Virus record (IMG/VR): IMGVR_UViG_3300027714_000001
Span: 1 to 64,000 of that record
From: a virus
DNA length: 64,000 bases
Strand: one strand, 5' to 3'
The position numbers and the translations under genes are program-made. Below the pieces are notes generated by a model that saw only the letters and a list, made by a program, of their open reading frames with translations, made no database searches and was not told where the DNA came from. Positions 47,322 to 57,720 of the stretch are shown here, one piece after another (the first letter of the stretch is position 1; each line of letters starts with the position of its first letter).

Positions 47322-47398
47322 GGGTGAGAAGCTTAAGTGGCATAAGCGACTGGCTGTTAACCAGAAGATAGAAGGTTCGAGTCCTTCCTCTCCCGCCA
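47322..47398 (+). tRNA. tRNA-Asn (GTT)
   Basis: Anticodon stem CTGG/CCAG with loop CTGTTAA, T-arm GAAGG TTCGAGT CCTTC, acceptor GGGTGAG/CTCTCCC with one mismatch, CCA. Confidence 0.9.
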
Positions 47399-48035: not shown

Positions 48036-48362
48036 TCTAGAAATTGAGAATAAAGGCTAAAGCAATTTAGTCTAGCCATACGCTTGAGGCTTAAGATAGC
48101 GGGGTCACTTTCAAGACCTATACTATGAAACAGATTCTATAGTCTGTAAAACTCTGGGGTCTAGTAGTTATGTGTCTCCTTAACAATACTACCGATTCAG
48201 TCACACTTCGTATTCAGGGTGATAGTTGGCTACTTAATGCTAGACGCGGGTACTTAGTCTATAAAATATAGTATCAGGGGATTAACTGGCCACTTTACTT
48301 AGCAGTTCGGGAGATCGTCACAGGAATAATGAGCCTGTAAATAAGTGGTGCAAGAGCGTAGA
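48036..48362 (+). ncRNA. Non-coding RNA A
   Basis: About 325 nt, no convincing gene. The leader CTAGAAATTG can pair with CAATTTAGTCTAG about 20 nt downstream (three bulged bases), and GGCTA/TAGCC offers a competing stem. Several further hairpins, such as ACAGATTCTATAGTCTGT. No tRNA T-arm or CCA. Confidence 0.5.
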
Positions 48363-48419
48363 AGTTATAATAACGTGTCCACTCTAATCAACAACTTAGA
48401 AAATAACTTAAAAAACAAC

Positions 48420-48448
48420 TTGCATAACGACTTAAAAATCGGTATAAT
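48420..48448 (+). promoter_or_regulatory. Leader-type promoter of non-coding RNA B
   Basis: TTGCAT (48420-48425), 17 nt, TATAAT (48443-48448), leader TTTTAGAAATTGAGAAAAGA. Confidence 0.9.
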
Positions 48449-48453
48449 AGTTT

Positions 48454-48640
48454 TAGAAATTGAGAAAAGAGAGAAAAACTTCTCCTTGAAAAAGCGGTAC
48501 TTCACATCTTTTCTCAAATTTCTAATGTAAGAATCACTGGTAGACAATTCTGCCGTTGACTATGCTTCTTCAGGGGGTGTCTTCTCTAGTAACAACTTAG
48601 GTTGGAGAGTGATTCTTACATTAGAAATTAAAATAACGCA
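48454..48640 (+). ncRNA. Non-coding RNA B with mutually exclusive long hairpins
   Basis: The leader (48454-48470) pairs with 48507-48524 with one bulge (17 bp). Bases 48517-48538 form a perfect 22-bp pair with 48608-48629. Bases 48517-48524 belong to both stems, so only one can form at a time. No reading frame of note. Looks like a switch or an RNA carrying an anti-leader. Confidence 0.65.
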
Positions 48641-48688
48641 GCAGACCTCTTGTAGGATTGATGAAGCGGAAATAAATTTTTAAAAGAC

Positions 48689-48717
48689 TTGCATAACGGC
48701 TTCAAATCCGGTATAAT
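48689..48717 (+). promoter_or_regulatory. Leader-type promoter of non-coding RNA C
   Basis: TTGCAT (48689-48694), 17 nt, TATAAT (48712-48717), leader TTTTAGAAATTGAGAAAAG. Confidence 0.9.
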
Positions 48718-48721
48718 AGTT

Positions 48722-49410
48722 TTAGAAATTGAGAAAAGAAAAAGAAACGAGTAGCGTGCGAAAGTGATGTTTTTTCTTTTCTGAAAGTTAGGGTAACGCT
48801 CGTGCACTGAGTGAAGGTTCAACTCCTTCTAGTAAATTTCTATTATGCAGGGTACAGTAACCTGACGATGAAAAATACTGAAACCTTTTAATATCCTAGT
48901 AATAAAGTAAAAAGATTCTAGGTAATCCTTCTGGCGATTCAAGTCTTAGATAGGCGGTGAGAAGTGTATTATACAGATGCGTCCGCGACCAACCAACTAA
49001 CACAAAGAATGATACGTAGCCATTACGTTAGACTGCAAACCGTTAAGGGCAGGCCAAGCTCCTAAGAAAACAATCTTGGAAGGCTTATACATATATTGCT
49101 TAGCACTTTGCTCCCTAAGTCTAGTGTGGAATCTATACAGAGGCAAATGCCTCTTTCAGGTCGAAATACCTAGACACACGAAATTGCTAGTCAGCGCAAT
49201 TAAAGATTAACTGATATACAAAGGTGTGACTCCTTTGTCCTTATTAAAGCGTATCTTGAAAGAGGAATAAGAACCTTACGCTGTGATAGCATCCTGCGGT
49301 AGTACGCTTTAATAAGGAAAGTTGTTCAACGGCAGCTCAAAGCGGCATAAAAGATTAATGCAAGGTAAATATTGTTTTCCTTGCGCTTTCCTTAACTACT
49401 CAACAAAGGA
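48722..49410 (+). ncRNA. Non-coding RNA region C
   Basis: About 690 nt without a gene. The leader-proximal AGAAAAGAAAAA (48732-48743) pairs perfectly with TTTTTCTTTTCT (48771-48782), and AGAAATT with AATTTCT at 48835. A T-arm-like GAAGG TTCAACT CCTTC occurs at ~48814-48830 without CCA. Further on: AGAGGCA/TGCCTCT (49139-49154), CAAAGG/CCTTTG, and a perfect 16-bp inverted repeat 49238-49253 / 49303-49318. Probably several RNAs or decayed tRNAs. Confidence 0.45.
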
Positions 49411-49416
49411 ACAAAA

Positions 49417-49770
49417 ATGGAATACACAATAAAGTGTGATACGCTAGACGTAAAAATGGTAGTTAAAGTTTTAAATAAGGAAAAGTTTGAAGCAGCCATG
49501 ACAAAGACAAATAAGTTTTGGAGTGGAAGCGAAGGAAGAGCTCTGTGTTACGGGGGACATGTACTGGCAGGACTTAAAATGTTTGCTCAAGAATGTCTTC
49601 AGCAAATCGCCTTTAATAACTTTCTTAATGGAGATTACTTAGAATATAAGTTTGATTGGAGCAAAGAAAACCAAGGTATTGAAGGCTTTTATAATTTCGC
49701 TACAGCAGGACTGAAAGTACTGGAAATTAATTCTTGGTTTGTCTGTACTGATGAAATAGAAATAAAGTAA
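49417..49770 (+). CDS. DUF2528-like protein, 117 aa
   Basis: MEYTIKCDTLDVKMVVKVLN ... NKFWSGSEGRALCYGGHVLAGLKM. The FWSG.E.R block followed by a Gly-helix resembles DUF2528, a phage/plasmid family of unknown function. CAAAGGAAC before the ATG. Confidence 0.5.
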   Translation: MEYTIKCDTLDVKMVVKVLNKEKFEAAMTKTNKFWSGSEGRALCYGGHVLAGLKMFAQECLQQIAFNNFLNGDYLEYKFDWSKENQGIEGFYNFATAGLKVLEINSWFVCTDEIEIK

Positions 49771-49811: not shown

Positions 49812-51080
49812 TCTAGAAAGTTAAGAAAAGAGATTAATACGAAGCAAGATTTACTCACTTGTTTTTATAAAGGGCGGTTTTATAGTATTGTAAACGTCTA
49901 AAGGAAGAAAGGGTACAGAGTTCTTCACTATAGTTTTAATTTCTTTTCTTAATTTTCTATGCACACTAGCTTCGGCCACATAGTGTAAGAAAGTTAAAAC
50001 CCTTTCTGTCCAATAATCAACGTAAGTCCTGACCCAGGCATTGTAGGGAGAGAGGTGCAATTCCTACCATATCCACGAGTAACGGTCAGTTTACTGAACT
50101 AACTCTAGGGATAAGGTAGATTAAAGCAGGGCGGTTTAGCGTCCTTAAAATAACCCACTGAAAGGTGGAAAAGGTAACTTGTCAGGTTGCCGCTGTGTAG
50201 GCTCCGGTTTACAATAGTTTATCTAGACAAGCACAAGTTTCATTCCGTAAGAATGTCTTTGAGTCTAAAATCAGAGATAGCATTAAAAGGAACGAGCGTA
50301 GGTACTCCCGACAGGCGAGTATAGCGGCTAATAACCAAAAAGCCAAAATTAGACATGGGGACATATTTAAACCTGCAATCCACTCTAGTACGAAATATGC
50401 AAAAACTAATGTGTAGTTGTTTCAGTCCGAGTAGTCATATAAGGGCAGGCAGCAGTAACAAAGAATTGTTTGTAAATAGACAATCCTTAAAATACGGTGG
50501 AGTAGCGGGAACGCGAAAGACAATGTGGTGTGGAATATTTTGTAAGTCAAAAGCTTACGAACTCCTGACGGAACACATCGCAGACAACTAAATAACGCTA
50601 TTGGTTAGCATTTGACTCTTAATCAAACTATCGGGTTCAATTCCCCATTAATCAAAAGTTTCCGTCGGTACGTTATCGAAAGATTGCTAATCCCTGACAA
50701 TAATGAATCAGGGCATATAAAGGTCGAAAGCCTGCATATGTTTACAACGTAGATAAATTTAGTCTCTTAGCGGAGAGTAACAGCCCTAAAGGTTGGAAGG
50801 AATCGAAATGTAGAGTAGATACGTATGACAGTCTTATATGCTTACAAGACTTTAAAGACAAGCGCAATCGGTGGGATACTAGGGAGACCTAGTGGATACG
50901 CAGCTAACTCATATGGCTCGCAAAAGACCTGCTACTAGAAGCCTTAATCTCAGGCTGATATAAATTAACTCTTTAGAGAGTATTTATGGGGACACTTTAG
51001 CTTTACCTAAACGCGAATAAGGTATAAATTATAGTAAAGAAGTTGAAGACTAATGCATTAGTTGGATGGACTAAAATATT
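49812..51080 (+). ncRNA. Non-coding RNA region D (about 1.27 kb)
   Basis: No convincing coding frame. The leader 49815-49831 pairs with 49942-49958 (17 bp, one G-U). The overlapping segment 49933-49946 can instead pair with 49987-50000 (AAGAAAGTTAAAAC, one bulge), the same competing layout as RNA B. At ~50595-50650 there is a tRNA-Lys-like anticodon arm TTTGA CTCTTAA TCAAA and a T-arm-like GGG TTCAATT CCC without an acceptor stem or CCA. Stems GACAATAATGAATCAGGG-type pairs and others follow. Purpose unknown. Confidence 0.45.
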
Positions 51081-51084
51081 ATAA

Positions 51085-51318
51085 TTGCTAGAGTCCCACC
51101 ATAAGTATTTTAAGAGCAAAAAAAAATTGTCAGCTACCCCTAGTTGGTCTGAGAGTACTGCAATAGGAGAGTTTTACTTTAATTGTCCTATAGGTTATCA
51201 TGTAGATCATATAGTGCATTTACAAGGGCTGATAGTTTGTGGCTTGCATGTGTTAGATAACTTACAGTATCTAACAGAAGAAGAAAATTTAACAAAAAGT
51301 AACGCCTTTATCGTATAG
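51085..51318 (+). CDS. HNH endonuclease domain, zinc-finger half missing
   Basis: 77 aa from TTG 51085, directly after an in-frame TAA. SATPSWSESTAIGEFYFNCP, YHVDHIVHLQG and GLHVLDNLQYLTEEENLTKS match the C-terminal HNH core of phage homing-type endonucleases; the usual N-terminal Cys pairs are absent. The last 15 nt, including the TAG stop, are also the 5' end of tRNA-Thr. Probably a degenerate mobile gene. Confidence 0.65.
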   Translation: MLESHHKYFKSKKKLSATPSWSESTAIGEFYFNCPIGYHVDHIVHLQGLIVCGLHVLDNLQYLTEEENLTKSNAFIV

Positions 51319-54897: not shown

Positions 54898-54973
54898 TAC
54901 GTGATAGTTTAAATATGAAAAATACAGGCCATTGCGGCTAGAGATGCTAGTGCAAGTCTGGCTCACGTAACCA
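54898..54973 (+). tRNA. tRNA of uncertain isotype
   Basis: Perfect acceptor TACGTGA/TCACGTA, D-arm GTTT/AAAT, T-arm GCTAG TGCAAGT CTGGC, CCA. By spacing the loop is CATTGCG, which has A at position 33 and would give TTG (Gln); TGC (Ala) is another reading. Divergent or damaged. Confidence 0.55.
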
Positions 54974-54974
54974 A

Positions 54975-55160
54975 ATTATTATAGTAAACTGGTTAATCCA
55001 CTAATCAAAAATGTAAGCTGCATACCAAAAATTTGCAGGTCAGCGTTGGTTCGCTGAGTAGGATTGATTACCCTATTACTTAATTGTGTATATTTGAGTC
55101 CCAAGAGGTCTTATGCAACAAATAATTGACTAGTTTACTATAATAATTTCATAAAGAGAT
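54975..55160 (+). ncRNA. Non-coding stretch before tRNA-Glu
   Basis: Stem CAGCG(ttggtt)CGCTG and TAATCC/GGATTGATTA pairs; a TATAAT at 55133 lacks a well-placed -35 box. No tRNA or gene recognised. Confidence 0.3.
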
Positions 55161-57513: not shown

Positions 57514-57589
57514 ACACTCCTGTAGCTTAACGGCAAAGCGCAGGCTTCTAAACCCTAGAAATGGGAGTTCAACTCTCCCCAGGAGTACC
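57514..57589 (+). tRNA. tRNA with predicted CTA anticodon (amber suppressor?)
   Basis: 76 nt with perfect acceptor ACTCCTG/CAGGAGT, D-stem GCTT/AAGC and T-arm GGGAG TTCAACT CTCCC. Canonical counting puts TTCTAAA at 32-38, i.e. anticodon CTA, which reads TAG. The anticodon stem has three central pairs (AGG/CCT) and C-C and C-A mismatches at its ends. Reading one base earlier gives TCT (Arg) but with a much worse stem, and another good tRNA-Arg (TCT) already exists. Confidence 0.6.
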
Positions 57590-57720
57590 AAATCAATAAG
57601 TATTAGCCGACTGGCTATAAAAATGGAGACGGATATGCGTTCTAACTAGATACCCCCTTGACGACTTTATATTACTAGTAGTACAACCAAACAGAAAACA
57701 ACTATTATATAAAGGAATCA
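57590..57720 (+). other. Short non-coding gap
   Basis: About 130 nt with no gene, promoter of the leader type, or strong hairpin seen. Confidence 0.4.

Follow-up and report, generated by a model that had tools for sequence, protein, structure and literature searches.

The transcript modelled at 48455-48640, RNA B, is on balance best read as an independently promoted, structured non-coding RNA of a phage tRNA island, whose leader would be masked by the RNA itself against ribosomes and decay. The window (the whole stretch of DNA analysed, 64,000 nucleotides) belongs to a 106,179-base virus genome, assigned to a T5-like vibriophage on the basis of its DNA polymerase identity, T5-type promoters and tRNA island. 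Among the phage matches listed, the DNA polymerase shares ~53% identity with its counterparts in Cetovirus, pVp-1 and related phages, and a 100% identical polymerase is present on three IMG/VR contigs. The region between 40 and 64 kb carries 20 tRNA genes, and RNA B sits in a gap among them (47.4-51.3 kb, between tRNA-Asn at 47322 and tRNA-Thr at 51304) that also houses RNA A, RNA C and a GOLLD RNA. An ORF of 117 aa at 49417-49770 has relatives of ~45% identity on viral contigs of IMG/VR, and a tRNA at 57516-57590 with a CTA (amber-reading) anticodon has similar genes in Aeromonas T5-like phages. The parts of RNA B and its neighbours are as follows.

48039-48410, + strand: RNA A, non-coding, same promoter type, leader weakly masked
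48420-48448, + strand: T5-type promoter of RNA B read from the sequence, TTGCAT at 48420-48425, 17-nt spacer, TATAAT at 48443-48448
48455-48470, + strand: leader, the predicted 5' end of RNA B and 5' strand of helix P1, start placed by analogy with T5 N25
48461-48470, + strand: SD-like purine tract in the leader, GAGAAAAGA, paired in both states of P1
48507-48524, + strand: anti-leader, 3' strand of P1; 48507-48516 keeps its leader pairing and 48517-48524 is common to P2
48517-48538, + strand: left arm of P2, a 22-bp helix
48539-48554, + strand: 6-bp hairpin GGTAGA-CAAT-TCTGCC, stacked within P2
48608-48629, + strand: right arm of P2, ending in a 9-nt copy of the leader 5' end (48621-48629, TTAGAAATT) that would displace the leader from the anti-leader
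48455-48640, + strand: RNA B as modelled, ~190 nt, no terminator found
48689-49410, + strand: RNA C, non-coding, own promoter 48689-48717, start ~48724, leader masked by ~48775-48785
49814-50956, + strand: GOLLD RNA, Rfam RF02032 over 50523-50956 (175 bits), leader 49814-49831 paired with 49942-49959

A sequence-only reading of this DNA had described a leader common to many phage mRNAs, and this leader does follow a T5-type promoter and recurs 3' of many promoters in the genome. In the coding transcripts of the phage the start codon lies 20-28 nt downstream of the transcript start, so that the leader supplies the ribosome-binding purines. The initial transcribed sequence of T5 N25 is established to matter for promoter escape (PMC12464699), which would explain why non-coding RNAs cannot simply drop the leader. 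Two leader classes stand behind the T5-type promoters of the whole genome (both strands), CTGGAATTGAGAAAAGG, which is mostly coding, and AGAAATTGAGAAAAG, which is found with non-coding RNAs and a few genes. The promoters and leaders of RNA B (48420-48470) and RNA C (48689-48739) are near duplicates, pointing to a recent duplication.

Within RNA B, the leader (48454-48470) pairs with 48507-48524 over 17 bp with one bulged A, at an energy of -17.1 kcal/mol (z -5.6), which none of 200 shuffles equalled. The complementarity ends ~2 nt beyond the predicted start and stops short of the promoter, so the anti-leader is not an inverted promoter copy. The second pairing, 48517-48538 with 48608-48629, comprises 22 bp, all perfect, and is the longest perfect inverted repeat of the whole 106-kb genome with arms within 160 nt. 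Six such repeats of at least 14 bp are present in the genome and none in 12 Markov-simulated genomes. Both complementarities proposed in the earlier reading are therefore real, and its statement that no gene is present agrees with the lack of any plausible ORF in RNA B. The predicted folding energy of the complete element is -59.5 kcal/mol (z -6.4 versus shuffles), and no other copy occurs in the genome. The second longest repeat, 18 bp and perfect (54973-54990 / 55132-55149, 141 nt between the arms), lies beside tRNA-Glu, and the fourth longest is a perfect 16-bp repeat in RNA C (49238-49253 / 49303-49318).

The two stems had been proposed to overlap and to be unable to coexist. The overlap of 8 nt stands and arises from the exact repetition of TTAGAAATT of the leader (48453-48461) at 48621-48629, but exclusivity does not, both hairpins being present in the predicted fold. 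The MFE structure contains a P1 of 10 bp (48461-48470 with 48507-48516) stacked directly on the full 22-bp P2, with pair probabilities of 0.97-1.0 for each of the P1 core and P2, and the alternative with a full P1 and a shortened P2 is 5.6 kcal/mol worse. Folds of the growing chain give a P1 that is complete from 48524 and trimmed at 48624-48629. In these models, 6-7 basal P1 pairs undergo a local strand exchange; there is no choice between two long hairpins. Among the RNAs compared, RNA B alone clearly hands over a leader helix that has already formed.

Strong masking of the leader is limited to non-coding transcripts. In this genome, strong anti-leaders were found only for the leaders of GOLLD, RNA B and, more weakly, RNA C (leader:anti-leader energies of -20.1, -17.1 and -11.0 kcal/mol, respectively), and for no protein-coding transcript. 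Exact-TATAAT promoters were then surveyed in 15 stretches of T5-like phages. A leader opening energy of at least 9 kcal/mol was reached by 0/64 coding versus 8/23 non-coding promoters (Fisher p = 8e-6), with medians of 3.0 and 6.0 kcal/mol (Mann-Whitney p = 4e-4), in a survey that is pattern-based, includes related phages and may count some false promoters as non-coding. The masked group contains T5 RNAX, two D239 RNAs that pass the cut and a third that narrowly misses it, a single RNA from D51 and another from X1, the last classed as ‘far’ for a doubtful distant ORF and thus outside the 23. The RNAs of D239, D51 and X1 are non-homologous and have differing leaders, each with a matching anti-leader; their alignment, in which X1 is misaligned at the leader, was left out of the pair counts. 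Masking is not universal among non-coding transcripts, that of RNA A being weak and several being unmasked.

That T5-like phages produce stable RNAs of unknown function has been known for a long time. Several are annotated in the T5 record AY543070, and none of the papers in the collection searched deals with T5 stable RNAs. One of the annotated RNAs, RNAX (AY543070 40848-41566), lies behind promoter P16-17 and starts with a 13-bp leader hairpin, ATAAATTAGAGAG...TTCTCTAATTTAT. In a comparison set of 29 IMG/VR loci together with further phages, this helix is kept in most RNAX copies, closing a loop of ~6 nt in T5, ~100 nt in Erwinia phage KEY and 150-190 nt in Epseptimavirus-type copies. The 5' part is arranged differently in a few copies: four show no clear anti-leader beside the body, and for two no promoter was found within the stretch examined. 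Across ten distinct leader/anti-leader rows, which are related to one another and were hand-joined with an artificial loop, 96.7% of the pairs form. Both-sided changes occur in 5/12 helix pairs, some of which (e.g. in KEY) may represent one coordinated indel rather than several substitutions; none of 500 shuffles was as good, and sliding the strands against each other abolishes most of the signal. From these alignments the RNAX leader helix appears to be under selection. Compensatory change, which the earlier reading had proposed to look for in relatives of RNA B, was thus found in the equivalent helix of RNAX.

RNA B shares with RNAX a T5-type promoter directly in front, the absence of an ORF, a location in the tRNA cluster and a leader closed by an internal anti-leader, the helix of RNAX being kept in its relatives. 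In contrast to RNA B, RNAX is ~700 nt long, contains tRNA-like parts and lacks a second long hairpin capturing part of the leader helix, and the two have no sequence similarity. Since the same masking occurs in RNAX, where it is apparently selected, a general shield for non-coding RNAs is a likelier interpretation of leader masking than a gene switch.

Further examples were found among other RNAs of tRNA islands. GOLLD (RF02032), a giant RNA that reportedly forms a cage (PMC12286853), has the same promoter type, a 5' leader helix and a tRNA-island location, whereas RNA B is only ~190 nt long and does not match its model. The short non-coding RNAs of D239, D51 and D260 resemble RNA B in their tandem arrangement ahead of tRNAs, each with its own T5-type promoter and leader/anti-leader helix, but they show neither homology to it nor a clear helix handover. 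These Vibrio phages carry 3-4 such tandem transcripts (loci L010 80-790, L015 1270-2000 and L009 560-1400; also L011 3559-3735 and L012 3474-3650), and GOLLD copies in D239 (L010), D51 (L015) and D260 (L009) lie under hypothetical-protein annotations. X1 and SJ1 also contain one family of these short RNAs, and for one there are matches in 289 Vibrio phage records. In RNA C, a 36-bp block at 49046-49081 (GGCAGGCCAAGCTCCTAAGAAAACAATCTTGG) is ~94% identical in Aeromonas T5-like phages (Shenzhenvirus, L036-L040), where the matches fall in unannotated non-coding DNA. MAFFT aligned RNA C well with the Aeromonas loci over this block only, and it is possibly a conserved small RNA domain with a hairpin CCAAG...CTTGG.

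No homologue of RNA B was found in related phages, where the earlier reading had suggested seeking the element. A distant blastn search of phages returned promoter/leader matches only, with no T5 or RNAX-bearing record beyond them, and a blastn search of plasmids returned none. RNA B was not found in IMG/VR, although the three contigs with the identical DNA polymerase are present there. The exact leader pattern had no match in IMG/VR; a 16-mer of the P2 right arm had 31, none with the left arm; and a leader-gap-antileader pattern searched in IMG/VR and GTDB genomes gave apparent chance matches with no T5-type promoter. No Rfam family matched at the gathering score, and lax thresholds gave chance matches only. 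RNA B was accordingly rejected as a GOLLD RNA (the RF02032 match lies at 50523-50956 instead) or a member of another Rfam family, and also as a member of the RNAX family proper, having no sequence homology to the RNAX body. Its assignment to the T5-type non-coding RNAs is one of architecture and context, not of descent, and covariation support for P1 and P2 themselves is lacking because no homologue was found.

We propose the following mechanism. Every transcript from a T5-type promoter begins with a conserved AT-/purine-rich initial transcribed sequence that the promoter imposes. This leader is open in mRNAs, where it carries ribosome-binding purines; in RNA B, as in GOLLD, RNA C, T5 RNAX and others, it is folded by an internal anti-leader into a helix closing the 5' end. 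During synthesis of RNA B the full P1 of 16-17 bp would form first. Emergence of the right arm of P2 would then allow the leader copy that it carries to displace the outermost 6-7 pairs of P1, leaving a predicted end state in which a 10-bp P1 over the SD-like tract is stacked on the 22-bp P2. The most likely purpose would be to protect an RNA not meant for translation from ribosomes and from decay that depends on the 5' end, and behind the shielded 5' end the body of the RNA may remain stable and correctly folded. The 6-nt 5' overhang of the modelled final fold is not an ideal fit to 5'-end protection, and leader masking leaves P2 unaccounted for.

A role for P2 is offered by a reading that we consider possible but clearly less probable, namely that P2 is mainly a processing signal and that a cut by host RNase III frees RNA B from a run-through A-B-C-GOLLD-tRNA transcript. 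The 22 perfect pairs of P2, stacked on P1, exceed the RNase III criterion of a helix of at least 20 bp. Furthermore, no terminator was found on the + strand from 47535 to the tRNA at 51304, which makes run-through and processing likely, and transcription may continue past RNA B into RNA C. However, each of RNAs A, B, C and GOLLD is served by a promoter of its own, and a P2-like helix is absent from the other leader-masked RNAs, the different 16-bp repeat of RNA C (49238-49318) being the sole similar one nearby. The early RNA of T7 carries RNase III processing hairpins with characteristic internal loops between genes. Both are long near-perfect helices within polycistronic phage transcripts, and P2 differs in being a perfect 22-bp helix inside a non-coding RNA, with RNase III cleavage putative.

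We think it improbable that RNA B acts as a timer, in which the nascent 5' end stays fully masked until the P2 right arm with its exact leader copy has been made. If so, strand exchange would free the first 6 nt in the completed molecule only, and this end would be open to a nuclease, a pyrophosphohydrolase or a partner RNA. It is likewise unlikely that the element is a decaying or neutral insertion devoid of function, such as a small inverted-repeat element beside a duplicated promoter. The orphan sequence, and a promoter that nearly duplicates that of RNA C, are compatible with this origin, but 22 bp without a mismatch, a fold z of -6.4, the absence of a second genome copy and leader-specific pairing like that in unrelated non-coding RNAs argue against it.

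The structured non-coding RNA with an anti-leader that the sequence-only reading had put forward is supported by these data; the two activities it suggested are not. An exposed anti-leader acting in trans as antisense to the 5' ends of other phage mRNAs is very unlikely. Complementarity to the anti-leader is found in many coding leaders, at up to -16.9 kcal/mol, but in the finished RNA the anti-leader is almost entirely buried (98% paired, 2% unpaired) and costs 19 kcal/mol to open in full, or 8.1 kcal/mol for a 10-nt core, and such burial (8-19 kcal/mol) makes the role doubtful. Moreover, its best partner is the leader of RNA B itself, in cis, and cis masking is the simpler explanation for the equivalent helices of GOLLD and RNAX; interactions involving nascent RNA are possible. 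As for a cis-acting, attenuator-like switch that chooses between the hairpins, the 8 shared nucleotides and the leader copy in the P2 right arm would permit exact strand exchange, but it has very little probability, as the hairpins coexist, no terminator-like site (hairpin plus T run) was found in 48443-49400, no gene lies between RNA B and the RNA C promoter at 48689-48717, no ORF or ribosome-binding site is under control, and no Rfam riboswitch was matched, so that neither attenuation nor riboswitch action is supported.

Self-masking of the leader, which we prefer for RNA B, suggests a common rule, whereby the promoters stamp one leader on all transcripts and many non-coding RNAs fold it away with an anti-leader. 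Non-coding RNA bodies and promoter/leader modules appear to have been shuffled between phages, and several of the D239, D51 and D260 RNAs overlap ‘hypothetical protein’ calls. The pairing of leader and anti-leader would provide a handle for spotting such RNAs in unannotated phages.
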